A stretch of DNA of 64,000 bases from a virus. The translations under genes and the position numbers were made by a program. Shown here in pieces: positions 10,952 to 57,804 of the stretch. Each line of letters opens with the position of its first letter. Position 1 is the first letter of the stretch. The notes beneath the pieces are model-generated. The model saw only the letters and a program-made list of their open reading frames with translations, did not search any database and was not told the origin of the DNA. The stretch covers positions 108,992 to 172,991 of the IMG/VR virus record IMGVR_UViG_3300042449_000993; one strand, given 5' to 3'.

Positions 10952-11119
10952 ATGCATAAAGATGATCTAAAAGTATTGATTATTATTCTTTTATTCGCCG
11001 CATTCGCTCTCGTCAACACATTTTTTCTTTGGGTTCCTGCATCAGCACCACCTGTAATGTTGGTGTTGTTCGTTGGATTGTATTCGATATGGGAGCATAA
11101 GTATGGCAACAAGGCGTAA
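10952..11119 (+). CDS. Small membrane protein
   Basis: A 55-residue protein: charged start MHKDDLK, then two hydrophobic stretches (VLIIILLFAAFALVNTFFLW and APPVMLVLFVGLYSIW) split by a Pro/Ser/Ala turn, ending in EHKYGNKA. This predicts a two-helix hairpin in the inner membrane. The ATG follows GGAG at a good distance, directly after the structured leader, and the end overlaps the next gene by 17 nt. No family recognised. Confidence 0.65.
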   Translation: MHKDDLKVLIIILLFAAFALVNTFFLWVPASAPPVMLVLFVGLYSIWEHKYGNKA

Positions 11120-11423
11120 TTTTTTCAAGTATCTTGGTCTTGCTGGTGGTGTTGCTGGCGGTGGTATTGTAGCCGCCGCCGCTGTTCTTCCTGATGCTGA
11201 TAAGTGTAAGGCAATAGAAGAAATTAAAGCCGCTGGTTACAATGGCAAGTTAAACATTGGCACTGAGTATGGTGAACTTGCATCACCAGACGGCACTATC
11301 AGTTGTGGTCCCAAATTTGTTCCAGGAACACAAAAGCATGTAACCGCAAGTATGACCGTCGGTCCTGATGGCGAGATGTACTTGATGACAAACGGAAAAT
11401 GGCGTAGAATAGTGACTGAATAA
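11103..11423 (+). CDS. Small protein with twin-arginine (Tat) signal-like N-terminus
   Basis: A 106-residue protein starting MATRRNFFKYLGLAGGVAGG: the TRRNFFK motif fits the Tat consensus (S/T-R-R-x-F-L-K) and is followed by a Gly/Ala-rich hydrophobic stretch to about residue 30. The rest looks like a small soluble domain (IGTEYGELASPDGTISCG, ending MYLMTNGKWRRIVTE). The ATG at 11103 was chosen because it puts the twin arginine at residues 4-5; a TTG at 11073 would add ten unlikely residues. It lies behind the small membrane protein, so both may act at the host envelope. Function unknown. Confidence 0.7.
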   Translation: MATRRNFFKYLGLAGGVAGGGIVAAAAVLPDADKCKAIEEIKAAGYNGKLNIGTEYGELASPDGTISCGPKFVPGTQKHVTASMTVGPDGEMYLMTNGKWRRIVTE

Positions 11424-37839: not shown

Positions 37840-38991
37840 ATGTTTAGTTTTAAAGACTATATTCCATTATTAACAGAAGAAAAGAAACCTGCTCGCGGAA
37901 TCTTACATCTTCCGCACCCTTCTGAATCAGCATTCCACAATCGTCGTGGAGCAGTAGGATCAACTCTCTCTAAAATTCAAAATGTGATCAATGGAAAGGC
38001 TCCGTTGACTCGAAAGATCGACGATCGCATGTCATTCCAGGCTATTCGCGATGAGCAAGGTAGAATCGGAGTTAAGTATAAAGGTCAAGGTGCAACCTAT
38101 AACTTCTCTCCAGAAGATATTAAAAAGCAACACAGCGAAAAGCCATATATCGCTGGTCCACTTCTAAATCTCCATAAACATATTCATAAAATTCTTCCAG
38201 AAGGTCCAGGAGAATATCAAGGTGGATATTTAAGTTCTTTGAATGATCGCACTGAAGAGGATGGTAAGATTGGGCACAAACCAAATACTATTCGCTATTC
38301 TGTAGATAAAAACTCTACAGAAGGTAAAAAATTGGCTAAAGCCCCAATCAGCGTTGTCGTCCATTCTCGAATTGATGCAAGCGGAAAGGCATCTCCGCTA
38401 GAGGCTGGTGCACTAAAAGAACATCCAGATGTTCACGTGATGAGTCATGTTGTAAGTGATGAAGAAAGAAAAATTCCAGCTGCATCAAAGAGAAAAGCAC
38501 TCGAACATATTGCAGCTGCAAAGAAACTCGCAAAAGATCAATCAACGAATCATCACGAAGGTCATGAAGAAACCCTATTGCGTTATGCAAACTCAACAGT
38601 TGATACTGGCGAGAAGCCAAGCGCAAAAGGTTACACAAAGTTCTTACAACAATATCATCAAAAGAAAATTGACAAAGTTAAGACTGATAAAGCGAAGGCT
38701 CAGAAAACTGAGACTATGAGAGCTGCAATTAATCATGTAAATGACAATCTTGATAAGTTTGATAAGACCTTCGAAATTCACCATCACATTCATCAAGCAA
38801 CACAAGCAGTTGCAAATACTCTCTCAAAAACAGCACATGGTGGTTATTCTCATCACATTGATGGTCAAGAAGCTGCTGGTGAAGGTTTTGTTTCTGGAGG
38901 AATGAAGTTTGTTCCTCGAGCATTTACTGAAGCAAATCGTAAACGTTCAGCAGAATTTAAAGCAGCAAAAGAGCAAAAGAGCGTACTATGA
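37840..38991 (+). CDS. Conserved phage protein with capsid-targeting-like start
   Basis: A 383-residue, Lys/His-rich protein. The N-terminus MFSFKDYIPLLTEEKK resembles the T4 capsid-targeting sequence of internal head proteins (MKTYQEFIAE), with LLTE as possible prohead protease site ((L/I)-x-E). The middle (RRGAVGSTLSKIQNVINGKA...YIAGPLLNLHKHIHKILP) looks globular and conserved among T4-like marine phages (DUF6267-like); the last ~120 residues are helical and basic. Function unknown. Overlaps the next gene by 4 nt. Confidence 0.7.
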   Translation: MFSFKDYIPLLTEEKKPARGILHLPHPSESAFHNRRGAVGSTLSKIQNVINGKAPLTRKIDDRMSFQAIRDEQGRIGVKYKGQGATYNFSPEDIKKQHSEKPYIAGPLLNLHKHIHKILPEGPGEYQGGYLSSLNDRTEEDGKIGHKPNTIRYSVDKNSTEGKKLAKAPISVVVHSRIDASGKASPLEAGALKEHPDVHVMSHVVSDEERKIPAASKRKALEHIAAAKKLAKDQSTNHHEGHEETLLRYANSTVDTGEKPSAKGYTKFLQQYHQKKIDKVKTDKAKAQKTETMRAAINHVNDNLDKFDKTFEIHHHIHQATQAVANTLSKTAHGGYSHHIDGQEAAGEGFVSGGMKFVPRAFTEANRKRSAEFKAAKEQKSVL

Positions 38992-41900
38992 GTAAGGCAA
39001 CATTTACATTTGGTAGATTTAATCCTCCAACTGAAGAAGGTCATGGCAAATTGGTCAGTGCTGTTATTGATCATGCTGAGAAAACTGGAGGAAAACACTA
39101 TGTGTTTCCATCGCACTCTCAAGATAAAAAGAAAAATCCATTGACTCATGGTGATAAAGTTCATGCGATGAATCGCTTGTTCCCAAATGCAAATGTTGTT
39201 GCTCATAATAAAGTTCGCACTGCAATTGATGCAATGAAGCATTTAGAGAAGCAAGGTCATAAAGAAGTTACCATGGTTGTTGGTTCTGATCGTGTTGATA
39301 ATTTCCACTCTCTACTCAATAAATATAGAACCAAAGAATATCCAGGAATCAAAAAAGTAAACGTAGTTTCAGCAGGCAATCGTGATCCAGATGCAGAAGG
39401 AGAAGAAGGCGAATCTGCTTCTAAACATCGAGCATTGGTAGCTGCTGGAAAAAGAGACGAATTTATTTCAAAATACAGCGATCCAAAATTGGGCGCACAT
39501 ATACATGATAAGGTAAAAGCAGGTATGCAAATGGAATCAGTTTCACCAGTTGGTATTTTCTTACTTGGCGGTCCAGGAAGTGGAAAAGATTATGTTTTGA
39601 AGAATATTTTTTCACGTTTTGACTTGATCGAAGTTCAAGCAGATCAAATTTTAAATGGTGCTGCTTCAGAATTACTCGAGCAAAACGTTAACATCGTAAT
39701 TAATGGTGTTTCTGATTCAAATAAGATTGCAGATATTCAAACTTTCCTTGAGGGATATACTTTTGATTTTGTTCATGTTTCTGTTACAAATAAAGTTTCA
39801 CGTATGCGCAATGAACAACGTGAACAACCACTCGTAGAAACAAAACGCATTGATAAATTCCTCAAAGCAGAAAAACTTGCTGAAGAAACTGGTGCATTCG
39901 TTTTCAACAATTCAATCAATCTCAATGAATCATCAGAGATGGAAAGAGTATTCTTCGGTTCACAAATCGAAAGACTCTTAGAGAGAGTGGTCAATTTGGG
40001 TCTCGAAATGAAAGCAAATCCAGAACCAAAAGCATTTACAGTGATCAAGGAAAAGTATTTCCCACCAGTAGCAAAGCACAAGTCAGGATTGCCAAAGAAG
40101 TATGTTGGTAAACTTTCAGACACAACCGCTGCTGCTCGTAAGGCTCATTGGAAAAAGATGGGCAAGTTATCAGATAGCGATCCAAGAGCGTATGAGCCAG
40201 CTCCTGGTGATGCAACATCAAAAACGAAACCAAGCAAACATACAATTGCTGTTCGTAAGATGATGGGTGAACAAATTGAAGGCGATCTGAAGAAGCCACA
40301 TACTGTTGAAAACATTGCGAAAAAGCACGACGTAACTGTTGATGTAATTAACAAAGCATTAGAGCATGGCATCAAAGTTGAGATGGAGCACACAAAAGAT
40401 AAAGAAACTGCTCAAACAATCGCATTAGCACATCTTTGGGAAAAACCAGATTACTATAAATTGTTAGCGAAAATGGAGCAGGTTCAACCACCTGTTGATC
40501 ATGTTGCTGCTGAAAAGAAAATGGAACGCGAAAGAAGAATTCGCGACACTCGAGTTTTAACTCATCAAAATCGCCACATCCATCAAGCAGCAATGGGTGA
40601 AGCCATTCGTCGTGTTCCACGCAGCGGAAATATTACGGCAGTAAATCAAAAAAGAGATTTAAACGATGCTGAAAGAGCAGCATTTGAAAAAGCCAAGAAT
40701 GCAATTGCAACATCAAAAGTTCAAGAAGAAGTAATTGATGAAGGCGCAGCAGATACTTCATTGGCAGCAAAAGCCAAAAAGTCTGGCATCTCACTTGGAA
40801 AACTTCGTAAAGTGTATAATCGTGGGGTGGCTGCTTGGAATTCTGGACATCGTCCAGGAACAACACCACAACAGTGGGGTCATGCTCGTGTAAATTCTTA
40901 CATCAATAAGGGTAAGACATATTATACAGCAGATAAAGATTTGCGTGAAGATACAGATATTAATGATCTATTTGAAATGCAACTAGTGGGCACGGACGAA
41001 TACCGAAAGCATGCTATTGCTATGACACCAGGACAAGGAGAAATTGAAGATGCTTTCCCAGTTAAGAGCCCAAATAAGAAACCTGTGGCAGTTCCTGCAA
41101 AGAAAGGCGAATCAATCGTCTCTCAATATACAGAGCACACAAATTGCGGAACGCCAGATTGCTGCGGAGAATGCTCTTCGAATGATGAGAATAGAGGAAC
41201 AAATGAATCAAGTGTTCCAAGATCTTTCAGAGCAATCAGAGAAGCGTCCAAGAAAGAAGAAATAGATCCAACGCCAACTTTGAATACAAAAAGAAAGAAA
41301 TCTACAAATAATCCACAAACATATAATTCAACTCTTGGTGGATTGATGGTTTCTCCAAAACATTCAATGTTCGAGGCTGACGCAGAAAAGAAGAAAGATT
41401 TCATGCCAACACCTCGTCAAGTACCACCACCTCCAGGCGGTCATCCAGTTCCAAAAGGATACAAAAGAGTTAGAGATAATATTGCTGGATGGAAATTGGT
41501 CAAAGAAGAAGGCGAACCAGAATTAACATTAGAAGAAGCAGTATCATATCACCTCGAAAATAAAATCTCTTTCACTGAGAATGTTTTCCGTCCAGGATCA
41601 GATATGTTCTTTGAAATGATTAGCGAAGCCAAGCGTCTTTATTCTGAAGGTAGATATGAACCGAAAGACGAATGGGAAAAAGATATGTTGGATTCAAACA
41701 TCGGCGAAATTGCTGAATTTGAAGGTCAACAAGTTGTTCTTGATTATCCTATCGAAGAAGGTCTTGAAGAATGCTGGTCTGGTTACACACAAAAAGGAAT
41801 GAAGAAAAAGGGTGATAAGATGGTCCCTAACTGTGTTCCTATGAATGAAGAAGATAAAACCAACGGTAAAGGTATCGGCAAGCCATGGCAAGAAGGTGGT

Positions 41901-42110
41901 GGTGGAGCCGTTTACGTTAAGGTTGGTGACAGCGTCCGCAAGATCAGTTTTAGCAAATCTGGAATGAAGAAAAGGTATATGGATCCAGCAGCTACAAGAT
42001 CATTTGTCGCTCGTCATCGTTGCTTAACAAATAAAGATAAGACCAGTGCATCCTACTGGGCATGTCGTTGGCCACGTTTCTTCAGTAATTCTGGAAAGAT
42101 ATGGTGGTAA
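38988..42110 (+). CDS. Large multidomain protein: nucleotidyltransferase, P-loop and DUF modules
   Basis: A 1040-residue mosaic. Residues 1-175: NMN-adenylyltransferase-like nucleotidyltransferase, with FTFGRFNPPTEEGHGKLV (a variant of H-x-G-H) and VVGSDRVDNFHSL. Residues 185-330: P-loop domain with LLGGPGSGKDYVLK. Around 350-400: KKYVGKLSDTTAAARKAHWKK. Around 430-500: a DUF5661-like module (LEHGIKVEMEHTKD, LAHLWEKPDYYKLL). Around 600-650: VYNRGVAAWNSGHRPGTTPQQW, a DUF5872-like module. The C-terminal ~170 residues include LEECWSGYTQKGMKKKGD and end SYWACRWPRFFSNSGKIWW. Acidic linkers such as QEEVIDEG separate the modules and may be prohead-protease sites. It could be a packaged polyprotein; NAD metabolism in the infected cell is another possibility. 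Confidence 0.65.
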   Translation: MSKATFTFGRFNPPTEEGHGKLVSAVIDHAEKTGGKHYVFPSHSQDKKKNPLTHGDKVHAMNRLFPNANVVAHNKVRTAIDAMKHLEKQGHKEVTMVVGSDRVDNFHSLLNKYRTKEYPGIKKVNVVSAGNRDPDAEGEEGESASKHRALVAAGKRDEFISKYSDPKLGAHIHDKVKAGMQMESVSPVGIFLLGGPGSGKDYVLKNIFSRFDLIEVQADQILNGAASELLEQNVNIVINGVSDSNKIADIQTFLEGYTFDFVHVSVTNKVSRMRNEQREQPLVETKRIDKFLKAEKLAEETGAFVFNNSINLNESSEMERVFFGSQIERLLERVVNLGLEMKANPEPKAFTVIKEKYFPPVAKHKSGLPKKYVGKLSDTTAAARKAHWKKMGKLSDSDPRAYEPAPGDATSKTKPSKHTIAVRKMMGEQIEGDLKKPHTVENIAKKHDVTVDVINKALEHGIKVEMEHTKDKETAQTIALAHLWEKPDYYKLLAKMEQVQPPVDHVAAEKKMERERRIRDTRVLTHQNRHIHQAAMGEAIRRVPRSGNITAVNQKRDLNDAERAAFEKAKNAIATSKVQEEVIDEGAADTSLAAKAKKSGISLGKLRKVYNRGVAAWNSGHRPGTTPQQWGHARVNSYINKGKTYYTADKDLREDTDINDLFEMQLVGTDEYRKHAIAMTPGQGEIEDAFPVKSPNKKPVAVPAKKGESIVSQYTEHTNCGTPDCCGECSSNDENRGTNESSVPRSFRAIREASKKEEIDPTPTLNTKRKKSTNNPQTYNSTLGGLMVSPKHSMFEADAEKKKDFMPTPRQVPPPPGGHPVPKGYKRVRDNIAGWKLVKEEGEPELTLEEAVSYHLENKISFTENVFRPGSDMFFEMISEAKRLYSEGRYEPKDEWEKDMLDSNIGEIAEFEGQQVVLDYPIEEGLEECWSGYTQKGMKKKGDKMVPNCVPMNEEDKTNGKGIGKPWQEGGGGAVYVKVGDSVRKISFSKSGMKKRYMDPAATRSFVARHRCLTNKDKTSASYWACRWPRFFSNSGKIWW

Positions 42111-42395
42111 ATGGTTGATAAGCCATACATTGACGAAAAACTAAATACTTGGACGTTCTTGCGCACATTTAAGCATGACGTTTTAACTGAAGAATTAGTA
42201 TGGCATCGCGATGAAAGAGGCAGATATATTGAGGTTTTAGAAGGTATTGGTTGGGAAATACAATTTGATGATCGATTGCCAAGAAAATTAATTAAGGGTG
42301 ATCACTTTTTTATACCTGCCAAAACCTTTCACAGAATTAAACGTGGAACGACAGACTTAAAGTTAAAAATTGAGGAATTTGATGAAATATCATAA
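42111..42395 (+). CDS. Small cupin-like protein
   Basis: A 94-residue single cupin barrel: VWHRDERGRYIEVLEG, then GDHFFIPAKTFHRIKRG, with two His in the metal-binding positions. It starts right after the previous stop and overlaps the Dps-like gene by 14 nt. Substrate unknown; it may bind metal or a sugar. Confidence 0.65.
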   Translation: MVDKPYIDEKLNTWTFLRTFKHDVLTEELVWHRDERGRYIEVLEGIGWEIQFDDRLPRKLIKGDHFFIPAKTFHRIKRGTTDLKLKIEEFDEIS

Positions 42396-42876
42396 TCTAG
42401 TTGAACAAGCAGAGACGATGATCAATGAGCAAGCAGAACCTGCTCTTATTGATGCACTCACAAACGTTTTCGCAGATGCCTTTGTTTTTTACTTTAAGGC
42501 TCACTCTTTTCATTGGAATGTAATTGGAAAAGATTTTCCTCAATATCATAAGTTCTTCGGTAAAATCTATGAAGGTGTTTTCAGCAATATGGATAAACTC
42601 GCTGAGGAGATTCGCGCTTTAAATGCACCAGCTCCGATGAATCTTGCAACATTAATTGCAAATTCTAAGATTATGGAAAATAAAGATACATTAACTGCAA
42701 CAGAAATGGTTGCTGCTCTTACAGCAGATAATACAAAAATTCTTGCTGGTCTTTTAGCATGCGCAAAAATGGCAGAAGCCGCAGATGAAATTGGACTTAA
42801 CGACTTTCTCACTCAACTCTATGACGAGCACAAGAAATTGGCTTGGATGTTGTCATCAACTCTAAAGGTTCTATAA
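42382..42876 (+). CDS. Dps/ferritin-like protein
   Basis: A 164-residue four-helix ferritin-like protein. FYFKAHSFHWNVIGKDFPQYHKFF followed by MDKLAEEIRALNAPAP matches the Dps ferroxidase region (His, then D-x-x-x-E). Dps proteins store iron and shield DNA from oxidation. The start MKYHNLVEQA may double as a capsid-targeting peptide with LVE as cleavage site, which would place Dps inside the head, but this match is weak. The ATG follows GAGGAA; an upstream TTG at 42370 is less likely. Confidence 0.78.
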   Translation: MKYHNLVEQAETMINEQAEPALIDALTNVFADAFVFYFKAHSFHWNVIGKDFPQYHKFFGKIYEGVFSNMDKLAEEIRALNAPAPMNLATLIANSKIMENKDTLTATEMVAALTADNTKILAGLLACAKMAEAADEIGLNDFLTQLYDEHKKLAWMLSSTLKVL

Positions 42877-44709
42877 ATGTCAGAAGCAGCATGGAATAAA
42901 GCATTTACTCAGGGTTCTACCGAACTCAAAAATCGCTTAAAGAAAGTTCACGCAAATAATCCAAAGTTTCAATCTTGGTTAAAATCTAGTGGACATGGCG
43001 CTGGAGCCAGTGTAAAACAAGCATCAAAAGAAATCAAACCATCTGAAAGAGTGAAAGCACTTCAAACTAAAAGTTTGAAAGCATACGGTGCTACAAAGGG
43101 GTTGAAAGTTGGCGGTGAGCATGGTAGCGGAGAAATGAAAGATACAATCGCTCCATTGACTCGCGATCAACATTCTAAAGTTCAGGCTGCTGCGCGTGCT
43201 GCTAAAACCGCTGAGAAACCAGCCGCTGCACCAAAAAAACTATTAACAAAAGATCAAAGAATGTCTGCAATTGCTGCTGCTGTTCGTAAAGCGCAAACAA
43301 AACACGATGTTCCTACAATGGAACCAGATGATGAAGGTCATGATGATCTAAGAGATCTTCATCAGTCATTGCATATTCGTAAAGGATATAACGAAGAGGC
43401 ATCTCCAATGATCAAGCCACCTACAAATAGATTTGATAAAAAATCTGATGCCTTTGCTCACGCAGAGAAACATGGCGGTAAGGTATACAAACAAACATAT
43501 ACTGATTCTAAGGGTCAACAAACAGTATCATATTCTGTTAAAAAAGAAGAAGTTGAACTTGAAGAAGGTAGAATGAAAGATATCGTCACCGATCGTCAAG
43601 AAAAAGAAAGATTAAAGGCTCAAGATGTATTGGGCGGTCCAGTCAAAACAAGAACAGGAAATGAACCAAAAGGTACGCTTCCACTCGGATTTCGCCAAGC
43701 GCGCAATATTGCTCGCAAGGCAATGAAAGCAGGCAAAACAGTCACAGAATCTACCACAGAGGTAAACGAAATGTCATCACATGGTAAAAAACTCGCCAAA
43801 ATGATCATGGCAAAACAATCAAAGCATCCAATTGCTCAAATGATGGGCGAAGCTGGGGACGAACCAAGACATACAGCCGATGCTGGTGAGTATGATTACG
43901 AGGGTGACATGGCAAAGTCTCAATTGCGTAGCATTATGACCAACGCAAAGCGTTTGCACGATATGCTCGAAGATCAAACAAATCTTCCTGAGTGGGTTCA
44001 AAGCAAGATCACTCTTGCTGAAGACTATGTTCTCACTGCTGCCAACTATATGGAAGGCGAGATGAACGAAGGGTACGGTGGAAAATTTCCTAAACAATGG
44101 CAAAAAGAAATGGAAAAGATTCCATCCACATCAACCGTGGTGCATAAAGATAAAACAGTTGTCACCACTAAAAAAGATGGTAAAGTTGTTGACGTAAAGA
44201 CAACTAAAAACGAAGAAGTCGAGCAAGTAGATGAGAAAATCAATCTCGTCAAAGCCAAGATGGGCGATGTAATCAAGGACTTCCAGAAGTCTGATGCTCC
44301 ACAATTTAAAGGTAAGAGCATGGAAAAGCGTCGTGAGATGGCAATTGCTGCTAAACTCGGCGCAGAACGCGAAGTTAAGGAAGAAGTCGAGCAGATTGAA
44401 GAGAAGTATATGGGCTTCAAGGCTGTAATGGCTGCTGCAAAGAAAGGCGGTGCTCGTAATCCTGCTGCTGTTGCTGCATCAATCGGTCGTGAGAAGTATG
44501 GTAAAGAAAAGTTCCAATCCATGGCTGCTAAAGGTAAGAGAGCCGCAAACGAAGAAACAGAAATTGTTGCTGAAGCAGAAGGTTCTGTTCCAGAAACTCC
44601 AAAAGAAAAGGAACTCGCCAAACATCACGGCGATCCAAAGAGAATCACATACGGTGATGTAATCAAGGCTCGCTTAAAGTCAGCCGCTGCAAAGAAGATG
44701 GGTAAATAA
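42877..44709 (+). CDS. Modular helical protein with repeated acidic linkers
   Basis: A 610-residue Ala/Lys/Glu-rich protein built from short modules joined by linkers: EEVELEEGR (near 224), EEVEQVDEK (near 446), EEVEQIEEK (near 502). One module, SQLRSIMTNAKRLHDMLEDQ...LPEWVQSKITLAEDYV, is familiar from many T4-like marine phage proteins; another is KYMGFKAVMAAAKKGGARNPAAVAASIGREKYG. Some linkers fit the prohead protease rule (L/I)-x-E. It starts directly after the Dps stop. Probably a virion or scaffold-associated polyprotein; enzymatic function not seen. Confidence 0.6.
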   Translation: MSEAAWNKAFTQGSTELKNRLKKVHANNPKFQSWLKSSGHGAGASVKQASKEIKPSERVKALQTKSLKAYGATKGLKVGGEHGSGEMKDTIAPLTRDQHSKVQAAARAAKTAEKPAAAPKKLLTKDQRMSAIAAAVRKAQTKHDVPTMEPDDEGHDDLRDLHQSLHIRKGYNEEASPMIKPPTNRFDKKSDAFAHAEKHGGKVYKQTYTDSKGQQTVSYSVKKEEVELEEGRMKDIVTDRQEKERLKAQDVLGGPVKTRTGNEPKGTLPLGFRQARNIARKAMKAGKTVTESTTEVNEMSSHGKKLAKMIMAKQSKHPIAQMMGEAGDEPRHTADAGEYDYEGDMAKSQLRSIMTNAKRLHDMLEDQTNLPEWVQSKITLAEDYVLTAANYMEGEMNEGYGGKFPKQWQKEMEKIPSTSTVVHKDKTVVTTKKDGKVVDVKTTKNEEVEQVDEKINLVKAKMGDVIKDFQKSDAPQFKGKSMEKRREMAIAAKLGAEREVKEEVEQIEEKYMGFKAVMAAAKKGGARNPAAVAASIGREKYGKEKFQSMAAKGKRAANEETEIVAEAEGSVPETPKEKELAKHHGDPKRITYGDVIKARLKSAAAKKMGK

Positions 44710-44710
44710 C

Positions 44711-45772
44711 ATGAAGTATCAAGTACAAATCTCATATACAAATCCTTCACACGAGCACGTAACATTACGTCGTCGCGTTGAAAGCGTAACTCGTCTTGTT
44801 GAGGCATCAAACGAAAACGAAGCCCTCAATCGCGCAGCAAATCAACAGCGTGCTCTTGGGTTCATGATCAAAGAAGCAAAGGTGTTACAAAAACATGCAC
44901 AAGTTTCTCTTGATCCAGAAAAAGAAACCAAGAAAAAGAAAATTGTTGGCAACGACAATGAAACCACAGACGTTGGTGCTGCTGGTGTGAAAGAAGAGAA
45001 AGGTGGAACTGAATCATATCCACTTCTTAAGAAAGGTGAGAAACTCAAGCCAATGAAGTTGAAGATGGAAGAGGGTTTTGATACCGATCCAAAAGATATC
45101 GCTGCATACTTGGTCGATCGTCATGGCAAGGGTAAGGTTACAATGGATCACATTGAAGCCTACGAAAGACGTCGCGATTCACACAGACCAATCGAAAAGC
45201 ATGAAGTCATGAAGTTTGTCAAGAAGATGAGCGAAGAAGTCGAGCAGATTGATGAACTCAAAAAATCAACACTGGCTTCTTATGTTAACAAAGCAGCAAA
45301 TCAAGTGCGCGCAAAGTCGGGAATTGCTGCCAGTTTTGAAACACAAGGCGCAAGAAAAAGAAATCCTGAAAATAAATCAGCATATATGGATGTAGCAAAA
45401 GATTTTAGACAAGGTGCTAAAAAACGTCTTACTGGTATTGAAAAAGCAACTGCTAAACTAGCCAAAGAAGAAATCGAACTCGATGAAGCCAAAGACGTAA
45501 CCAAAGATCTTCGCACTTCAATGAAGGCAATGGATCTTCGCCATGGCGTTGATGCGGATAAGCGCGTTGCTGGTTACAAAATGTCACCAGCTGTTCGTGC
45601 TGCTCAAAAAAAATCTGATGAACTTTCAAAGGTAGAGAAGAAACCACAGGCTGGAACACTCGCTGCTCAGAAGTCTCGTAAGGCTGCAGAGAAAATGGTA
45701 AATAAGGCAAAGACCGTCGCAAATAAAATTAATGTGGCTCCAGCACTTGAAATGGGTAAACCAAATGCTTAA
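44711..45772 (+). CDS. Modular protein related to the preceding gene
   Basis: A 353-residue protein. The N-terminus (YQVQISYTNPSHEHVTLRRRVE) is a small strand domain; then a Lys-rich linker, a helical module (DPKDIAAYLVDRHGKGKVTMDHIEAYERRR), the linker EEVEQIDELKK, the common marine-phage module STLASYVNKAANQVRAKSG, then EEIELDEAKD and a basic tail. The near-identical linker DNA links it with the gene at 42877. Overlaps the next gene by 8 nt. Confidence 0.6.
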   Translation: MKYQVQISYTNPSHEHVTLRRRVESVTRLVEASNENEALNRAANQQRALGFMIKEAKVLQKHAQVSLDPEKETKKKKIVGNDNETTDVGAAGVKEEKGGTESYPLLKKGEKLKPMKLKMEEGFDTDPKDIAAYLVDRHGKGKVTMDHIEAYERRRDSHRPIEKHEVMKFVKKMSEEVEQIDELKKSTLASYVNKAANQVRAKSGIAASFETQGARKRNPENKSAYMDVAKDFRQGAKKRLTGIEKATAKLAKEEIELDEAKDVTKDLRTSMKAMDLRHGVDADKRVAGYKMSPAVRAAQKKSDELSKVEKKPQAGTLAAQKSRKAAEKMVNKAKTVANKINVAPALEMGKPNA

Positions 45773-46217
45773 ATTTAGCGAATTTTTAAAAGAAGAAAAT
45801 GAAGATGTGATCGATACTGATGTTCGTCATCTAGAAGAAAATCTAGATGCATTGAATGCAGAACTCGACACTCTTACCACAAAACCATATCAAAACGCCC
45901 CTTTAATGCTCGCTCAATTGCGTGGAGTATTAGAGCGTTATGGTATTAATCTTCCACAACAAGCAACGCCAAACTTCTTGAATCTATCCGCAGAGTTGGT
46001 TTATACTCTTGGTGATTCAGGAAAGTTTTTATATATCGTTTATGATACAAACGATGATGCTTATGTTGATGGTTATGCTCAAGTTGTTGATGGCGAAGAA
46101 CTATCAATGCTTGCAAGTTCTGATGTTTTAAACACTGATCGCAATTTAATTGCAGTTCGTCATTCAGATTGGTATCGTAAGAGAGATGACGATTCAGGTG
46201 ACGATAGCGAATATTAA
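45765..46217 (+). CDS. Small acidic protein with capsid-targeting-like start
   Basis: A 150-residue protein starting MLKFSEFLKEENED, close to the T4 capsid-targeting consensus (FLKE as (L/I)-x-E site). The rest is acidic and probably globular (LAQLRGVLERYGINLP, ELVYTLGDSGKFLYIVYDTNDDAYVDGY), with Asp-rich end. Similar small proteins are conserved in T4-like marine phages. The ATG at 45765 is preferred over one 33 nt upstream because it exposes this peptide. Confidence 0.65.
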   Translation: MLKFSEFLKEENEDVIDTDVRHLEENLDALNAELDTLTTKPYQNAPLMLAQLRGVLERYGINLPQQATPNFLNLSAELVYTLGDSGKFLYIVYDTNDDAYVDGYAQVVDGEELSMLASSDVLNTDRNLIAVRHSDWYRKRDDDSGDDSEY

Positions 46218-46220
46218 TTT

Positions 46221-46607
46221 ATGTTTGATGATTTAAATGAAGAAAATATATTATTGTATGCAGCAAAAAGTTATGAAAAACCAAACTGCATTCATAGCGA
46301 ATTTGAAGAAGATTATAAGCGCATCAGGTACATCAAGCGATTATTGCAAAGATATCGTTTAACTGGAAAAATAAAAGAGCGATTAATACTAAATCATATT
46401 GTTATTGTACAAAATGTTTTTGGAATTGAAGCCAGTACGAGAATGTTATTCTTTAGAATTGACTGGAGAGACTGGAGCGCATTAAAAACATTTTTAATTT
46501 ATACTTCTGCAATGCCAAATATTGTGAGAGGCATAAGAAGCAAAGATATAATTTCGAGTGATATACCAATCGACGAATATATTGTAAGTATATTGAGAGG
46601 CGTTTAA
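46221..46607 (+). CDS. Conserved T4-like phage protein
   Basis: A 128-residue protein: FDDLNEENILLYAAKSYEKPNC, RIRYIKRLLQRYRLTGKIKERLILNHIVIVQNVFG, ending SDIPIDEYIVSILRG. This combination is highly familiar from a small core family of T4-like phages of marine bacteria, always near structural genes and without known role. Basic and helical; could bind DNA or the portal region. Confidence 0.78.
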   Translation: MFDDLNEENILLYAAKSYEKPNCIHSEFEEDYKRIRYIKRLLQRYRLTGKIKERLILNHIVIVQNVFGIEASTRMLFFRIDWRDWSALKTFLIYTSAMPNIVRGIRSKDIISSDIPIDEYIVSILRGV

Positions 46608-46623
46608 TACTAGACATACTGAT

Positions 46624-46631
46624 TATAAACT
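46624..46631 (+). promoter_or_regulatory. Candidate late promoter
   Basis: TATAAACT, six of eight matches to the T4 late motif TATAAATA, 42 nt upstream of the ATG at 46666. The same octamer stands 46 nt upstream of the gene at 60860. No good -35 box is present. Confidence 0.4.
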
Positions 46632-46665
46632 AAAATCAAGTATGAGTCAAATATTGGGGACGGAT

Positions 46666-47931
46666 ATGTTAAATTTTAAAACATTTATTGTAGAAAATTT
46701 CTTGGTAGAGGGTAGAGGCGAAGAAACTGCTCACGGTGGATTTGCCAATGAACACTTTACTGTCAATCATATTAACGAATATGTCAAACATGTCAGTTCT
46801 GGCGGTTCTCATGAAAGCGGATTGAAGAAAATTAAAGGTGCCAAATTTGACAAAGGCGCATATAAAAGTGGACACCCAATTAAAAACGCAATTGATGCGA
46901 TTGGACATAAGCAAGTAGAATCCATTCACGAAGATTCTAAAGACACTGCGCATGCAATCATTAATCATCTCAGAGATAATTATGGATCAAATGTGACAAA
47001 CTCTCATCATGTTGGTAAAGTCGGTGCTGCTGGTGTAGAAGAAGTTAAGAAATTGACTGGTAAGGCTTCAAATGCTGACGTAGTTCTTTCTACAAAACAT
47101 CCAAAGAAAGGGGCAGGTCATGCTCTTGCTCACTTGGAGCATGTTGGTGCTTCTTTAAAATACTCAAAGAGTGAAAAAGAAGGTAGTATTAAAATTCACT
47201 CACCTAGCATCTCAAATATGGCTAAGATAGTTGATGATCATCATGAACAGATGCATCAAAAATCTGCAGGTGTTTTAAAAGGCGTTGAAGATGCAGTTAA
47301 GAAGGGTGTTGAAGAGCAAAGAAATATTGTAAAGAAACACGCAAAAACATTAGAAACTCATTTCAAAAGCAAAGAGTTTTTACAGAATAAAGATAAAAAG
47401 CACGTTAAGAAATATCTTGGCAAAGTTGGATCTGCAGAAGATTATAAAAGCGGCAATTTAAATAAGGCTGGCATCAGTTATATCAATAAGAATGAAAAGA
47501 TGAAGCCAATTTATGATGAGATGAAAGCAGCAAATTTAAAAATGAAACAAAACGTTGCTGGACATCTTCACAGAGGAATTGCTGCTGTTTTAGATCATAA
47601 ATCAAAAAATCCTAATCATGCTAAGATCAAAGAATCATTAACACGTTCTATTGGAAACGTTCATTCACCAGAAAAGTCTGGATCTCTTCCAACATTCTTA
47701 GTTTCTACTGATCGCAGTAGAGGTGTGAAGATTCATGATATTACAAATCACTTTGCAAAACATTTTAGTGGAGCAGACCCGCATAAACATTCTTTCACTA
47801 AAGGATCTTCAACTTTTAGAGTTGGTCCAACAAATATTGCTATTGACGCAAGACCATCAACTAGTGCAAGAGCTCCATTAAATAATCCAGTTAATGTTTC
47901 AATTTCTGCAGCAGATCTTAAGAAAAAATGA
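46666..47931 (+). CDS. Basic internal-head candidate protein with capsid-targeting-like start
   Basis: A 421-residue Lys/His-rich protein. From the ATG at 46666 it starts MLNFKTFIVENFLVEGR, with IVE and LVE as prohead protease sites; the earlier ATG at 46642 would hide this peptide. The body (VNHINEYVKHVSSGG, VLSTKHPKKGAGHALAHLEHVGASLKYS, and a C-terminal STFRVGPTNIAIDARPS) may contain a nuclease-like or DNA-binding domain; no catalytic motif is certain. A basic, packaged protein fits an internal protein delivered with DNA. Overlaps the next gene by 4 nt. Confidence 0.65.
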   Translation: MLNFKTFIVENFLVEGRGEETAHGGFANEHFTVNHINEYVKHVSSGGSHESGLKKIKGAKFDKGAYKSGHPIKNAIDAIGHKQVESIHEDSKDTAHAIINHLRDNYGSNVTNSHHVGKVGAAGVEEVKKLTGKASNADVVLSTKHPKKGAGHALAHLEHVGASLKYSKSEKEGSIKIHSPSISNMAKIVDDHHEQMHQKSAGVLKGVEDAVKKGVEEQRNIVKKHAKTLETHFKSKEFLQNKDKKHVKKYLGKVGSAEDYKSGNLNKAGISYINKNEKMKPIYDEMKAANLKMKQNVAGHLHRGIAAVLDHKSKNPNHAKIKESLTRSIGNVHSPEKSGSLPTFLVSTDRSRGVKIHDITNHFAKHFSGADPHKHSFTKGSSTFRVGPTNIAIDARPSTSARAPLNNPVNVSISAADLKKK

Positions 47932-48293
47932 AATCATTTAAAGAATTCATAAAAGAAGATGCACCAGCAAATGCAATGGGCGCAGCAGGAATCAGTAGCG
48001 CAGGCACCGCTGTAAATGTTGGAATTGCAGGATTTGATCCTGTGATGGGGAAAATGCTTCGCCGAAAGAAACCAGCAATGTTTGGTGGAAAAAGAGTTTT
48101 TAAAGTTCCTTCTGATCGTTATCAAAAAGCATTACAAGGAAAAAAGAAATTTAAACATTATTCAAGTTATGTGGGACGCGATGAACTTGGTGAAGAAATT
48201 CAATCATATATTCGCGAAAATCCAGAAGCTCCAGTGATTCTTGAAGATGAAGTGACAGGAGCAATGTTGTTCTTAAAATACGGAAAGAGGTAA
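47928..48293 (+). CDS. Conserved protein with strong capsid-targeting-like start
   Basis: A 121-residue basic protein starting MKSFKEFIKEDAPANAMG. This is the best match in the window to the T4 internal-protein leader MKTYQEFIAEA, cleaved after I-x-E. The following Ala/Gly-rich part is flexible; then basic GKMLRRKKPAMFGGKRVFKV and a small domain (SSYVGRDELGEEIQSYIRE...TGAMLFLKYG). A family with this layout is common in T4-like marine phages. Confidence 0.72.
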   Translation: MKSFKEFIKEDAPANAMGAAGISSAGTAVNVGIAGFDPVMGKMLRRKKPAMFGGKRVFKVPSDRYQKALQGKKKFKHYSSYVGRDELGEEIQSYIRENPEAPVILEDEVTGAMLFLKYGKR

Positions 48294-50738: not shown

Positions 50739-51128
50739 ATGTCAGCATTAACAAATAACAAATATAATCTAGAAATGTGGCAGGGTGCCACATTTTCAAT
50801 GACCGTTACTGTCAAAGATGCCAACGCAAACGTCCAGAATTTATCTGGATATACTGCGAGAATGCAAATTCGCACAAGTTATGGTGCAGGATCAGCAACT
50901 GAATCACTCACTACTTCTAATGGTGAAATCACCATCACTGCAGCAGAGGGCAACGTTGCACTAGAACTCGCAGCAACAAGAACTGCGAATATTCCTGTTG
51001 ATTTAAACAGTGATGGAAAGCCACCAAAGACGGTTTATGTTTATGATTTAGAATTGGTTGATGGTAATGGTAAAGTTTCAAAACTTCTTTATGGCGATGT
51101 GAATGTTTATGCTGAGGTCACTCGCTAA
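50739..51128 (+). CDS. Tail/baseplate-associated beta-sandwich protein
   Basis: A 129-residue strand-rich protein: [36 protein letters not shown], then [17 protein letters not shown] and [29 protein letters not shown]. This is the pattern of small phage proteins related to BppU N-terminal domains that attach receptor-binding fibres. It overlaps the fibre gene by 1 nt, supporting that role. Confidence 0.75.
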
Positions 51129-54100
51129 TGTCAGATTATGTAGTTGTAACATCTACAAGTAACACAGTAACCGTAGTAAATCAACCAACTAATATCGTTG
51201 TTGGTGATTCAGCAATGCGTGGCGCTCCTGGACCATCAGGTCCGCAAGGAGCACTAACTCCATGGGCAATCAAAACTTCAAATTATACAGCAATTAATGG
51301 TGATCGATTAATTGCAAATACAACTACTGGCGCAGGTTCATTTACAATCACATTACCAGCATCTCCAGTTAGTGGAGATTATGTTGTTATTTCTGATGGT
51401 GGAAATTGGGGTGCAAATAATTTAACTGTTGCGCGCAATGGATCTACAATTGAAGGTGTTGCTGACGACATTCTTTTAAACTTGAAAGGCGTCACTGTAG
51501 AATTTATCTACAATCAAACAACTTGGGAAGTTACAGCAACAACAGGTGCACGTGGTCCATCTGGTGCAACTCAAAACTTACAATCAATTAGTGGTCATGT
51601 GATTCCATCAGAAGCAATCACATATGATCTTGGTTCTGCTGAGAAACCATGGCGTGATTTGTATTTAAGTGAAGATACAATTTATTTCAACTCCAGAGGT
51701 ATCGGTTCTGGTGGAATAAAATTTAGAGTTAAAAGAAATGGTGGAACAAGCCCACCGTATTTCGAAATTATTGATGCGAATAATTCGAATGCACAAACAA
51801 ATACTGCTATCTTCACATCAAATTGTTGCAACGTCAATGTAATGGCGAATGGATCGTCGACGGTTGACACGCTCAATTTGAATTTTGTAAACACATCTAC
51901 AATAACTGTAAATGTAACAAGAAGTGGCGCAAACGCAAATATTGCATTCACGACAACTGCAGGTGCCGCTGGTCCTTCTGGTCCACAAGGTTCAGCTGGA
52001 TCAACTGGTCCATCGGGTCCATCGGGTGCAACTGGTCCTTCTGGTCCTTCTGGCAATGCTAATGCAACAGCAGCAGGAAATACAAGCGAAGTTCAATTTA
52101 AAGCATCAAATGGTTCTTTTGATGCAACAGGAAAATATCTATTCTATAAAGAAAATGTGACATTGCAGACAAACATCACAATGGGCAATGTGATGACTGT
52201 AAATGGAAATACTTGGGTGTCAAGTAATTCTTTCCATGGACAACTCAGCAATACTCAACAATTCTCTAGAACATTTTATGCTGATTCTGGAACCTCTGTT
52301 TATTATGGAGCAAATATTAGCCCTGCTTTCGTTGTTGTAAACGAAAAACCAGTAAAAAAAGAAGCAATGATTCTTGGCAGAGGATTGTCGCCACAATACG
52401 CAATTTCTATTTGTGATGAGACTAGTGTTAATACCAACGACATTGCGAATAATTGGAACCAGCTGCGGGCTGCATATCCATCTTTAATTTTCAACTTGCT
52501 TCAACCGCTAGGTCCACCATCAGCTGCAGTTAGAGCAGACTTAAAAATTCCTGCATCGTTCGATGCTGATCCAAGAGCGTTTTATTATCAAGTTAACAGA
52601 GATACAGGTAATCAGCCCCCAAATACATCAAATTATCTGGAAATAACAAATATTCCAAATGATTCAACTGTGTATTACGTTATTGATAATTCTGGCAGTA
52701 TGGGAAATGGAAATATTATAGACTCTATATCATTGTTGAATTCAACCGCTGCCACAAAGAATATTTCTCTAGTTTATTTGGGTGATCAAACAACTGAAGA
52801 TTGGCCAGGTTGGTTTAAAGACGCTCTTAACGCAGAATTTGATTCTGCTGCTAACGTTGATATTTGGCAAATCTCAACATATAAAGACGCAAATGCTAAT
52901 TTAACAATTTCGACAGGCAATGAATCAGAGTGGACACCACTTATAAGAACTGATTCGCTTGGAACGACTTATGCAAATAACATTCATGTATATACAAAGT
53001 CATACTTGAATACTAATGCAAACGTCACGATTCTTGGTGGATCAAATGGTCAACATTTGACAACAGATGGCACTGGAAATTTAAGATGGAGCACTGGAAC
53101 AGCAGGAGCGCAAGGAGCGCAGGGTCCATCAGGTCCACAAGGTCCTTCTGGTCCACAAGGTGCTGCATCTACTGTTTCTGGTCCGCAAGGTCCACAAGGT
53201 GATCCAGGTGGTCCATCTGGTCCACAAGGTCCGCAAGGGGCGCAGGGTCCATCAGGTCCACTAGGATTAACTGGTCCTTCTGGTCCACAAGGTGTTCAAG
53301 GTAATGTTGGTGCACAAGGTCCGTCTGGACCGCAGGGAATTGGTCCTTCTGGTCCTCAAGGTGCTCAAGGTTCTCAAGGTGCAACTGGTGATGCAAATAC
53401 CATCACAACAACCAATGAATCCTCTGCAACTCTATATCCTGTAATGGTTGGTGCTATCGGTTCATCTCAAGTAGCCAAAGCCAATTCAAAATTAAAATTT
53501 GTCACTGCGAACAATGCTTTGATTGTTGGTAACTCTGCCATTTCTGTACTTGAAGGTTATGGAAGTCTCGCAGTATTTGGAACTGGATATGCCAATGACA
53601 CGGTTGTGTTTGGTAATGGTACTCAGTATCAATTGCTCGAATTCATGTGCGGTTATGCTCTAACAAATAGTACAATTGGTGGTGTTCCTGACGCAAACAC
53701 TATGACGATTAGATCATCTGGTGAAAATGCAGGTAATCTTGCTTTTGCAACAGGAAATGAAGAGCAAGTGCGCATAGATAGAAATGGAAACGTTGGAATT
53801 AAGATTGTAAGTCCAGTCTACACGCTGCATGTAAATGGAAATATTCATGCAACTGGAACCGTCACTGAATCATCCGATGTTAGATATAAAACAAATATTA
53901 TCACTATTGAAAATCCGTTAAATAAAGTATTGTCATTGCGTGGTGTAAACTATAATCGAATTGAAGCAAATAACACAATTTCAAATGATACCTTTATGGG
54001 TGTAGTTGCTCAAGAAGTTATGAATGTTATTCCTGAAGTTGTTAGCGGAAATGAAGAGATTGGATATTCAATTTCTTATGGAACCATGGTTGCATTATTA

Positions 54101-54175
54101 ATCGAAGCAATCAAAGAGCAAAACAGAAAAATTAGTGAACTAGAAAATCTAGTTATTAGTTTAAGAGATAATTAA
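51128..54175 (+). CDS. Tail fibre with collagen-like repeats, possible VWA insert and S74 chaperone
   Basis: A 1015-residue fibre. Two collagen-like G-x-y zones (about residues 278-313 and 658-756) flank a central region; a beta-domain with [10 protein letters not shown] follows the first. Residues ~515-610 look like a von Willebrand A domain: [13 protein letters not shown] has the MIDAS pattern D520-x-S522-x-S524, then [15 protein letters not shown]. The C-terminus is an S74 intramolecular chaperone with self-cleavage expected at S916-D917 ([10 protein letters not shown]) and a coiled-coil end ([20 protein letters not shown]). It should trimerise and bind host surface; the VWA part is my inference. 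Confidence 0.85.
53104..53393 (+). repeat. Collagen-like coding repeat
   Basis: Imperfect tandem 9-bp units (GGTCCATCT / GGTCCACAA type) coding for about 95 residues of Gly-Pro-Ser and Gly-Pro-Gln triplets. A shorter tract with the same units lies at 51961-52056. Confidence 0.9.
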
Positions 54176-54180
54176 AAATA

Positions 54181-57100
54181 ATGACTCAAAATTTAACAGA
54201 TATCTTATCATCATCCTTGCCAGTTGGTCCATCTGGTCCGCAAGGCATTGGTCCATCGGGTCCACAAGGTGTGAGTGGTCCTCAAGGCGCACAGGGCGAT
54301 CCAGGCGGTCCTTCTGGTCCATCTGGTCCTCAGGGAGCGCAAGGTTCAGCATCAACAGTTTCTGGTCCACAAGGTGCGCAAGGTGCACAAGGCGTAAGTG
54401 GTCCATCTGGAGCTCAAGGTGCAACTGGTGCTGCTTCAACAGTTTCTGGACCACAGGGTGTTTCTGGTCCAAGTGGTCCACAAGGTGCGCAGGGTTCTGC
54501 ATCAACAGTTTCTGGTCCATCTGGTGCACAGGGTGCGCAGGGTGTTTCTGGACCACAAGGAGTTTCTGGACCACAAGGTGTTTCTGGTCCATCTGGCGCA
54601 CAGGGTGTTTCTGGACCACAAGGTGTTTCTGGACCACAAGGTCCACAAGGTGATTTAGGTCCATCTGGTCCAAGTGGTCTACAAGGCACTCAAGGTTCTA
54701 TTGGTGAAACTGGTGCTCAAGGTCCATCTGGTCCTCAAGGAGAACAAGGTGTCAGTGGTCCACAAGGCGAGCAGGGTGTCAGTGGTCCGCAAGGTGTTTC
54801 TGGTCCACAAGGCGAGCAGGGTGTCTCTGGTCCATCTGGTCCACAAGGAAACACTGGCATAAGAGGTCCTCAAGGTGCACAAGGTGTAAGTGGACCACAA
54901 GGTCCATCTGGTCCACAAGGTGTTTCTGGTCCAAGTGGTCCACAAGGTGAACAAGGAGTTTCTGGTCCTCAAGGTCCATCTGGTCCTCAAGGAGAGCAGG
55001 GTGTCAGCGGTCCACAAGGTCCACAAGGAGAACAAGGCGTCTCTGGTCCTCAAGGCGAACAAGGCGTTTCTGGTCCTCAAGGTCCACAAGGAGCACAAGG
55101 TGTAAGTGGACCACAAGGTCCATCTGGTCCACAAGGTGAACAAGGAGTTTCTGGACCTCAAGGTCCTCAAGGCGATTTGGGTCCATCTGGTCCAAGTGGT
55201 CCACAAGGTGTCTCTGGTCCGCAAGGTCCAATTGGTGACAGATACGAAACAACAAGTAACACATCATTAACTGTTGGAACAGGAACAAAAACATTAAACG
55301 TCGAAACTGGACTTGCATATTCTCTTGCTCAAGTTGTTCGTATCGCAAACACTGCCTCCATTTATATGGAAGGTGCTGTATCTTCTTACAATTCTGGCAC
55401 AGGATCACTATCAGTTGAATCAACTGTAACAAGTGGATCAGGAACTTATAATGTTTGGGAAGTAAATCTTGCTGGTGCAACTGGCGCAACAGGTGCTCAA
55501 GGTCCATCTGGTCCTCAAGGCGAACAAGGCGTTTCTGGTCCTCAAGGTCCACAAGGAGCACAAGGTGTAAGTGGACCACAAGGTTCTCAAGGTGCTGCTT
55601 CTACTGTTTCTGGACCACAAGGTCCACAAGGGGCGCAAGGAGTTTCTGGACCGCAAGGAGTAAGTGGTCCTCAAGGTGTTTCTGGTCCACAAGGTGCGCA
55701 AGGAGCACAAGGTGTTTCTGGTCCACAAGGCGTGAGTGGTCCTCAAGGTCCGCAAGGTGCGCAAGGTGTCAGCGGTCCACAAGGAGTATCAGGTCCTTCT
55801 GGTCCACAGGGTGTTTCTGGACCACAAGGTGTTCTTGGTTCAAGAGTTTATACTGTTGACGCATTTGGAACGAGCAATTATCTCATCAATGGATCAAATG
55901 ATCCAACGCTTTATTTGCTTCGTGGGTTTTTGTATGAGTTTGAAGTTAATGCAAGTGGGCAACCATTTTGGATTAAGACAGCGCAAACAACAGGAACAGG
56001 AGATGCGTATAATACTGGTGTGACAAATAACGGTGATGATGTTGGTACAATTATTTTCCGTGTACCATATGATGCACCAAGCACACTTTATTATATTTCT
56101 GAAAATTCTGCATCGATGACTGGTGTCATTTCAATTAGTGACATTGGTCCTTCTGGTCCATCTGGTCCTCAAGGTGTTTCTGGACCGCAAGGAGTAAGTG
56201 GTCCTCAAGGTCCACAAGGAGCACAAGGCGTCAGCGGTCCACAAGGTCCGCAGGGTGCGCAAGGTGTTTCTGGTCCACAAGGTCCTCAAGGCGCACAAGG
56301 AGTTTCTGGTCCTCAAGGTGTTTCTGGTCCACAAGGTCCGCAAGGTGCACAAGGCGTTAGTGGTCCATCTGGTCCAAGAGGTGTGACTGGTCCACAAGGT
56401 CCACAAGGTGCACAAGGAGTTTCTGGACCATCTGGGGCTCAAGGTGTGAGTGGTCCATCTGGTCCATCAAGCACAACAATCACATCAACTGATACACCAA
56501 GTGGTGGAACTCTCTATCCTGTAATGGTTGATGGATTAACCAGCGCAACACCAAGAGTTACAACAACTAAATTTAATTTCAATTCAACATCTGGTCAATT
56601 AACGTCAAATAGCATGAATTTGATGCAATCATCAAATGGTCAAGCACTAATAATGGCGAACACCACTGGTGCAACCTTCATGACGATGTTGAGTGCAGGT
56701 TCTGGCTCAACACCAGTTCCAACAACTACAGTTGGAGCTGGACCAATTAGCATAGTAAGCGGTTCTGCATCAAACGACTTTACTGTGAATATGAGCACAG
56801 GTGGATGGTTTAATTTTGCTTGGAATGGGCAAATTGAAGCATACATGAATTCAAGCGGATTGGTGATGATGGGCAATTACATCAATCTAGATGGTGGTCA
56901 ATTAAGACAAAACGGAGTTGCCATCATTGATTCTGCGGGTAATTGGGTTGGACCATCAACAGGACTTATTGGACCAACTGGTCCTCAAGGAGCACAAGGT
57001 CCATCTGGTCCACAAGGAGCAACTGGTGCCACTGGCGCACAAGGTCCATCTGGTCCACAAGGAGCAACTGGTGCCACTGGCGCACAAGGTCCATCTGGTC

Positions 57101-57804
57101 CACAAGGAGCAACTGGTGCTACTGGCGCACAAGGTCCATCTGGTCCACAAGGAGCAACTGGTGCTACTGGTGCGCAAGGTCCTGCAGGTCCACAAGGAGC
57201 GACTGGTGCCACTGGCGCACAAGGTCCATCTGGTCCACAAGGTCCTGGCTCTGATCAAGCGCTTTTCACAACTGATAATGTTCAATTCAATTCATTAGGT
57301 ATTGCTGGAAGTCCTGGAAATCTTGCATCAGCTAAAGTTGAAGTTACTGCAGGATCAAGCACTGCAATGTTCTTGAACGGTAATGGTCTCTATATATGGT
57401 GCTGGTATCAAAGTAGTGACAAGTGCATTATTTTTGCTAATGGTACTATTCTAAACGCAACTGGTGTTTATGGAACACTTTCTGATGCCAGAGAAAAGGA
57501 AAACATTGTTGATGCTACACCAAAACTTGAAGGACTATTGCAACTTAAAGTTAGAAATTACAATCTAATTAATAACAGTGCCAAATTTATTGGATTTGTT
57601 GCTCAAGAAGTTGAAGAAGTTTTCCCAGGATTAGTCGAAGAGAATGCAAAAAATGCTCTTGATGAAAATGGAAACGTAGTTCAAGTTGGAACAGTCAAAT
57701 CAGTTAAACAAAGTTTGTTGGTTCCAATGCTTGTAAAAGCAATTCAAGAACAACAAGTAATGATTAATGATTTGAAGTCTAGATTAGACGCCGCTGGGCT
57801 GTGA
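54181..57804 (+). CDS. Collagen-like tail fibre with S74 chaperone
   Basis: A 1207-residue fibre. A very long Gly-x-y region (residues ~15-350, broken by [17 protein letters not shown] and similar beta inserts) alternates with small beta domains (~355-420; ~560-650), more collagen-like tracts (~435-555, ~655-765), a head domain (~765-935), and a final tract of 15-residue units (~935-1022). The S74 chaperone begins near 1095, cleavage expected at S1101-D1102 ([10 protein letters not shown]), ending in a coiled coil ([19 protein letters not shown]). The triplets [12 protein letters not shown] should form triple helices without hydroxyproline. It shares the S74 end with the upstream gene, so the two may be paralogues. 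Probable receptor-binding fibre. Confidence 0.85.
54223..55233 (+). repeat. Long collagen-like coding repeat
   Basis: About 1 kb of 9-bp-based units coding for GPSGPQG, GVSGPQG, GEQGVSG and GAQGVSG. It is the longest repetitive tract in the window and could change in length by slipped recombination. Further tracts in the same gene lie at 55480-55840 and 56146-56470. Confidence 0.9.
56986..57245 (+). repeat. Near-perfect 45-bp tandem repeat
   Basis: Five to six copies of a 45-bp unit coding for the 15-residue sequence [15 protein letters not shown]. Copies differ only at a few third positions (gcc/gct, ggc/ggt) apart from one copy with GPAGPQG, which points to recent expansion. Confidence 0.9.

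Follow-up and report, generated by a model that had tools for sequence, protein, structure and literature searches.

A block of ten genes in the phage genome studied here is very likely (probability roughly 0.88) a T4-type head-cargo operon; that the leaders are cut, that the proteins sit in its virions and that they are injected is inference. The block lies in the window (the whole stretch of DNA that was analysed, 64,000 nucleotides, positions 108992-172991 of a viral record of 172,991 bp). In the proposed mechanism a leader of about 10 residues (aromatics at positions 4 and 7, a hydrophobic residue at 8 and Glu at 10) would bind the cargo to the prohead scaffold core. A gp21-family protease would then cut after [LI]xE, a motif that also precedes the mature major capsid protein, and the freed cargo would remain in the head alongside the DNA until ejection into the host. 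The cargo would comprise a DUF6267 protein (with a ligase-like fold), Dps, a 150-aa family, a 421-aa orphan and a capsid-arm mimic.

Leader genes and head genes of the window phage

The features of the block are as follows (window coordinates; a slash marks the predicted cut).

37840..38991 (+): DUF6267 protein, 383 aa, ligase-like (PF19782, E 4.6e-29); leader MFSFKDYIPLLTE/E at 37840-37878
38988..42110 (+): 1040-aa nucleotidyltransferase (NMNAT/cytidyltransferase-like) with P-loop and small modules; no N-terminal leader
42111..42395 (+): 94-aa cupin-like protein (Cupin_2, E 8.8e-4, under the Pfam cut-off); no strict leader
42382..42876 (+): Dps/ferritin-like protein (PF00210, E 1.5e-21); leader MKYHNLVE/Q, then MINE/Q; 18-aa add-on at 42382-42435, MKYHNLVEQAETMINEQA
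42877..44709 (+): 610-aa polyprotein-like ORF; EEVELEE at 43546-43566, EEVEQVDE at 44212-44235, EEVEQIEE at 44380-44403
44711..45772 (+): 353-aa polyprotein-like ORF; EEVEQIDE at 45233-45256, EEIELDE at 45467-45487
45765..46217 (+): 150-aa family protein; leader MLKFSEFLKE/E at 45765-45794
46221..46607 (+): DUF7207 protein (PF23837, E 9e-37), conserved block marker; no leader
46666..47931 (+): 421-aa orphan; strict leader MLNFKTFIVE/N at 46666-46695
47928..48293 (+): 121-aa capsid-arm mimic; leader MKSFKEFIKE/D at 47928-47957, capsid N-arm copy at 47955-48086

A first-pass annotation, made from the sequence alone, had listed five genes with such leaders. All five ORFs and leaders are present, the nested starts of ORFs 45765 and 42382 being backed by the ortholog L011, but the block is larger than that list: ORFs 42877 and 44711 bear repeated internal sites. 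We defined a strict leader pattern of 10 residues, M..[FY]..[FY][LIV].E, which is matched exactly by three of the five leaders (45765, 46666 and 47928). The leader of 37840 is a variant with a 3-residue insert, and that of 42382 is a shorter, less canonical variant with only a partial fit. ORFs 38988, 42111, 42877, 44711 and 46221 carry no strict leader at their N-terminus. A fourth strict match in the genome lies outside the window, in a HAD-type protein starting MKKFLDYLQE (G000:27420-28037, G000 being the genome of the window phage). With shuffled N-termini 0.03 strict-leader genes are expected per genome; the five leaders are not due to chance. Since the pattern was chosen after seeing the leaders of the window and of T4, the decisive tests are the out-of-sample ones, in published virion proteomes and in related loci.

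In T4, mutagenesis of IPIII has shown that targeting depends mainly on residues 4 and 7 of the capsid-targeting sequence (CTS) and processing on residues 8 and 10, that cleavage occurs after L/I-x-E, and that CTS fusions bring foreign proteins into head and host (PMC9026906). The family leader consensus, MK[ST]FK[QE][FY][LI]xE, matches the T4 CTS at exactly these residues (4, 7, 8 and 10).

The source is a T4-like aquatic phage of a Kyanoviridae-like clade; its gp23 is closest to Kyanoviridae capsid proteins (~54-56% against S-CREM1, S-B68, HTVC008M and Methylophilales phage Melnitz). Its head genes are found outside the window, on the upstream side, in T4 order:

record 90319: portal-like ORF, named by position and sequence appearance
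record 92093 and 92971: small core-like ORFs, named likewise
record 93273: S77 prohead protease (PF03420, Peptidase_S77, E 3.8e-32; domain G000:93306-93773)
record 93957: scaffold-like ORF, named by position and sequence appearance
record 95230: gp23 capsid protein

A gp21-family (S77) prohead protease is therefore encoded in the same genome as the leader genes. The capsid protein of T4 is cut at FLTE/A, and in 18 of 18 T4-like capsid proteins compared an [LM]xE stands immediately ahead of the mature arm. The earlier proposal of a T4-type CTS cut by the prohead protease held and is well supported, and the gp21 protease that it suggested looking for was found. Cleavage of the leaders as such remains inferred and unproven, no N-terminal peptide mapping having been found for any relative.

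The DNA of the leader-gene block showed no match to known phages. The late promoter TATAAATA occurs once in the window and nowhere at the block, which is below chance expectation, and TAAATA is not enriched either, so that late expression cannot be argued from promoters.

Leaders in related loci and in virion proteomes

The DUF7207 gene served as anchor to collect related loci: 80 were kept from a profile scan of viral contigs (at least 600 rows), and the full set counts 86 IMG/VR and phage loci. Within the orthologous block (12 genes upstream to 2 downstream of DUF7207) the strict leader is found in 86 of 815 genes against 5 of 680 farther downstream (p=3e-18), and in none of the 143 minus-strand ORFs of these loci. 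There are 84 distinct leader sequences, on bodies that fall into about 20 clusters without detectable similarity between them. Residues K2, S/T3, K5 and Q/E6 are also favoured, though the pattern did not select for them. The fixed positions are partly due to selection in the strict set; this does not hold for the DUF6267 and 150-aa families, whose members were chosen regardless of the leader. Here leader-like N-termini are present in 41 of 41 N-terminally intact DUF6267 homologs (8 further matches without one look like fragments), and all 10 members of the 150-aa family bear the leader. What the sequences themselves show is that the leader exists and is conserved on unrelated bodies, that the genome has the protease gene, and that the capsid protein carries a matching site.

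It might be argued that the common N-terminus belongs to a mobile cassette, as a recombination site or a translation-initiation context, and has no targeting role. The block is indeed mosaic, with bodies swapped between phages. Nonetheless, conservation falls on the protein positions of the T4 CTS; the HAD family keeps its leader both within the block (loci L038 and L079) and ~120 kb away in the window phage (G000:27420); and the DUF6267 leaders vary in sequence and even in length, yet keep the aromatics and [LI]xE. We consider this explanation very unlikely.

For the second test, virion proteomes were taken from S-CREM2 (PMC10665884, Table 3; OR473000) and S-SCSM1 (PMC9602691; annotation of MK867354.2). 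The strict leader occurs in 4 of 100 virion proteins against 0 of 385 others (p=0.0017), even though alternative starts gave the non-virion ORFs additional opportunities to match. The four, enzymes that the authors were unable to place, are a SAM hydrolase (MKDFDSFLEE), an APH-like kinase (MKRFDAFLTE) and an NMNAT-like protein (MKNFSSFLTE) of S-CREM2, and the NMNAT-like protein of S-SCSM1 (MKSFLQFLKE). A Cas9-annotated virion protein of S-CREM2 has LRFASFMAE/AA close to its N-terminus. A relaxed pattern (6/100 against 6/385) was too noisy and is not relied on.

A third proteome, that of S-SZBM1, includes the cytidylyltransferase S-SZBM1_140 (PMC9146016), which starts MRFRQFIIE/A: the same tag, one residue shorter. 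Its neighbour is a DUF6267-like protein of 397 aa that starts MAKNTHLEHLED, without leader. Judging from the tag order (139 = 457 aa, 140 = 362 aa) this should be S-SZBM1_141, a tag absent from the text of PMC9146016. Across the three separate proteomes, the virion enzymes other than tail lysins bear the leader or a close variant. In S-SCSM1, 7 of the 9 genes of the counterpart block are annotated as virion proteins. Several block proteins are present in the virions of relatives without an N-terminal leader (S-SCSM1 89, 90, 92, 93, 95 and 97), and the leader is thus not the sole route in.

The authors of the S-CREM2 and S-SCSM1 studies asked if the packaging of such enzymes is genuine and raised co-purification as a possibility (PMC10665884, PMC9602691). 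Along this line, the leader would be an ordinary amphipathic N-terminus with an incidental [LI]xE, and detection in relatives would reflect contamination by abundant late proteins; the relaxed counts above also show that short motifs can arise by chance. Against this, the strict pattern is absent from the 385 non-virion ORFs, is sharply confined to the block and sits on some 20 unrelated bodies, and enzymes other than tail lysins are tagged in three proteomes. We regard contamination as a very improbable account. The occurrence of leader-bearing enzymes in the virions of relatives is shown (by the mass spectrometry of others), whereas for the window phage, of which there is no proteomics, virion presence is inferred by homology.

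Given that relatives carry similarly tagged enzymes in their particles, the window phage probably delivers tagged proteins along with its DNA. Injection into the host is likely by analogy, with no data behind it, and the first-pass claim that the proteins are injected held only in part. A partial literature search found no paper on capsid targeting in cyanophages.

Predicted cargo of the block

The DUF6267 protein resembles a ligase. Residues K59, D61, E348-G349-V351 and K356 are invariant in 28 members, and we take these to be ligase motif I KxD(G), motif IV EG[FY]V and the motif V lysine; the window copy has KIDD and GG, against KYDG and GD in most members. An AF2 model (pLDDT 88) has ligases as most of its top 50 PDB hits, T4 Rnl2 being the first, but none reaches significance by itself (best E 0.086) and TM-scores are low. 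No ligase was among the Pfam or PDB sequence matches (the PDB sequence search gave nothing significant), tblastn against the phage collection found no match, and DUF6267 was not mentioned in the literature searched. The protein resembles a divergent polynucleotide ligase, but as the activity is inferred from motifs and a model this is a lead rather than proof. The end of its gene overlaps the first codons of ORF 38988, and PHROG 455 spans parts of both, so that the two are probably fused in some phages. ORF 38988 matches phrog_3041 (E 1.7e-65), phrog_395, DUF5661 and DUF5824, and aligns with the virion NMNAT of S-SCSM1 (33.5%, E 1e-21); a PDB sequence search with its N-terminal part gave nothing significant.

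Several phages have a Dps gene in the block, and the window copy aligns with their proteins. Its 18-residue leader-like extension, described here for the first time, is present only in the window and in L011 and absent from the block Dps of five other phages; it is restricted to one clade and non-canonical. As the extension has two [LI]xE sites without the aromatic spacing, it is a weaker leader than the other four. A model of the 150-aa family (pLDDT 70) gave no usable fold match, and no homologs of the 421-aa protein were found, tblastn of the phage collection included. The functions of these genes had been called unknown, which held in part: three can now be given an assignment, namely the ferritin-like Dps, the protein with a probable ligase fold and the mimic of the capsid N-arm. 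The suggestion of anti-restriction or host-takeover factors is neither supported nor excluded.

The mimic is the 121-aa protein of ORF 47928. Its residues 10-53 align with residues 55-98 of the phage's own gp23 (50% over 44 aa, E 1e-13), and in each protein the aligned stretch opens with the Glu of the predicted cut site. In this new arrangement the tag runs straight into a copied N-arm of the phage's own mature capsid protein, with the junction falling precisely on the cut site; this lends indirect support to leader cleavage. The counterparts S-CREM2 gp160 and S-SCSM1 gp97 occupy the same place after DUF7207, are both virion proteins and also contain the capsid N-arm (AAGATGFTGAAAPEGPVAGYDPLM and AVGAGGFTGSSAAEGPTAGYDPLM, respectively). 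In other phages the likeness of the small protein to the capsid protein is reduced to a short [AGP]P[TA]N-type motif. Ranked among capsid proteins, the one from the same phage is the mimic's best match in 3 of 5 phages and its third in the other 2, which is suggestive only. Because the mature end copies the capsid N-arm, docking on the inner surface of the capsid is probable; that the arm is a tag for this purpose is our inference.

In RefSeq the S-SZBM1 version bears the name 'major head protein'. A role as major capsid protein is ruled out for ORF 47928: the likeness to gp23 is limited to 44 N-arm residues, which makes it a mimic.

Linkers resembling cut sites recur in ORFs 42877 and 44711, which may be modular polyproteins; this is a new observation that we offer as a possibility, cleavage being inferred from the sequence. 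A set of 169 related ORFs has 2.33 such linkers per 1000 aa, compared with 0.10 for the remaining ORFs of the loci, and shuffling lowers the count from 139 to 4.6. Of 980 homologous segments, 511 start close to [LIVMFT]xE, against 307 +/- 14 at random. Two caveats apply: the 169 ORFs were gathered from linker-bearing seeds, and linkers may themselves draw alignment edges to them. The predicted fragments are mostly basic. In the S-CREM2 and S-SCSM1 proteomes, two or more linkers per protein were seen in 2 of 100 virion and 1 of 385 non-virion proteins (p=0.11); as linker count did not separate virion proteins, polyprotein processing is not supported by this test.

These features bring up a rival explanation that remains possible, namely that the block encodes scaffold or core components (like T4 gp67, gp68 and gp22) that are cut and then mostly expelled or kept structurally, not delivered. 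The capsid N-arm of the 121-aa protein and the virion presence of its S-CREM2 and S-SCSM1 counterparts would fit, as would several linker-type cut sites in polyprotein-like ORFs; in T4, core proteins are cleaved into a number of pieces and largely removed (PMC9026906). On the other hand, leader-bearing enzymes such as the SAM hydrolase, APH kinase, NMNAT-like protein and HAD phosphatase have no evident structural role, and enzymes retained in the virion do not suit an expelled core. Head cargo remains our preferred reading.

A bolder version, an expanded head-cargo system in aquatic T4-like phages, is in our judgement less likely than not. Here a kit (probable RNA/DNA ligase, P-loop nucleotidyltransferase, HAD phosphatase and Dps) would serve as injected nucleic-acid repair and protection. 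The prohead protease would split the packaged polyproteins at their EEVEQIDE-type linkers, releasing small peptides that are mostly basic, and the mimic would borrow the mature N-arm of the capsid protein for docking inside the shell.

Significance and comparison with known systems

The leader provides a sequence rule for predicting head-packed proteins of aquatic T4-like phages, and could explain how NMNAT-like proteins, SAM hydrolase and kinase enter cyanophage virions, a point that the proteome papers left open. Since DUF7207 is very common in the profile scan, the system may be a main protein-delivery route of such phages. Two new features, the capsid-arm mimic and the polyproteins with their linkers, are specific and readily testable.

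In phiKZ and SPN3US many head-internal proteins are likewise processed after xxE by a gp21 homolog, but the phiKZ motif is S/A-x-E and the protein families are others. The polyvalent proteins (Iyer et al. 2017) are also large, modular and predicted to be packaged and delivered, whereas the modules of the window are small and parted by prohead-protease-type linkers (shared domains were not compared in depth). Closer are the virion enzymes of S-CREM2, S-SCSM1 and S-SZBM1, which share the leader, with NMNAT-like proteins homologous to ORF 38988 and, in S-SCSM1 and S-SZBM1, a counterpart gene block; the window NMNAT-like ORF differs from them in having no leader. The sections bearing on it in the three papers do not mention a targeting leader.

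With IPI, IPII, IPIII and Alt of T4 the window genes share the 10-residue leader with the same residue types at positions 4, 7, 8 and 10, a cognate gp21-family protease and the use of one leader on unrelated bodies. The bodies differ (DUF6267, Dps, the 150-aa family and the capsid-arm mimic), none of the block's Pfam or PHROG matches being to families of the four T4 proteins, and the window phage has more leader genes, mostly in one block, in a Kyanoviridae-like clade. Overall, the targeting device is a known one; its cargo set is larger and differs in content, and two additions are unusual.

Leader-bearing HAD-type gene and cysteine-containing modules

G000:C1:27420-28037 (whole-record coordinates, outside the window): HAD-type protein gene, strict leader MKKFLDYLQE

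The encoded protein shares 56% and 46% identity with the HAD genes located within the proposed head-cargo block of two related loci (L079 and L038, respectively). Immediately 5' of the gene lies TATAAATA.

The leaderless nucleotidyltransferase of the block (window 38988-42110) carries, at residues ~925-1040, small modules containing cysteine, CWSGYTQKGMKKKGDKMVPNCV and ARHRCLTNKDKTSASYWACRW; related phages have the former in further proteins of the block as well.

Other window ORFs

11073-11423: ORF with twin-arginine-like N-terminus MATRRNFFKYLGLAGGVAGG
51128-57804: GPSGPQG repeats of collagen-like type in two large ORFs, which likely encode tail fibre proteins

Proteins of published cyanophages

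L135:8081-8452: S-SZBM1 PP650_gp142, 123 aa, RefSeq 'major head protein'
L021:7704-10313: S-CREM2 gp12, virion protein, annotated Cas9-like
L027:44215-44535: S-SCSM1 gp30, small protein, leader-like MKTFKQFMSE

The PP650_gp142 label is likely a misannotation, which probably arose because only the capsid N-terminal motif is in common with the capsid protein. Close to its N-terminus, gp12 has the leader-like LRFASFMAE|AA (bar, predicted prohead-protease cut). gp30 has not been reported in the virion; its gene sits between those of two virion proteins.
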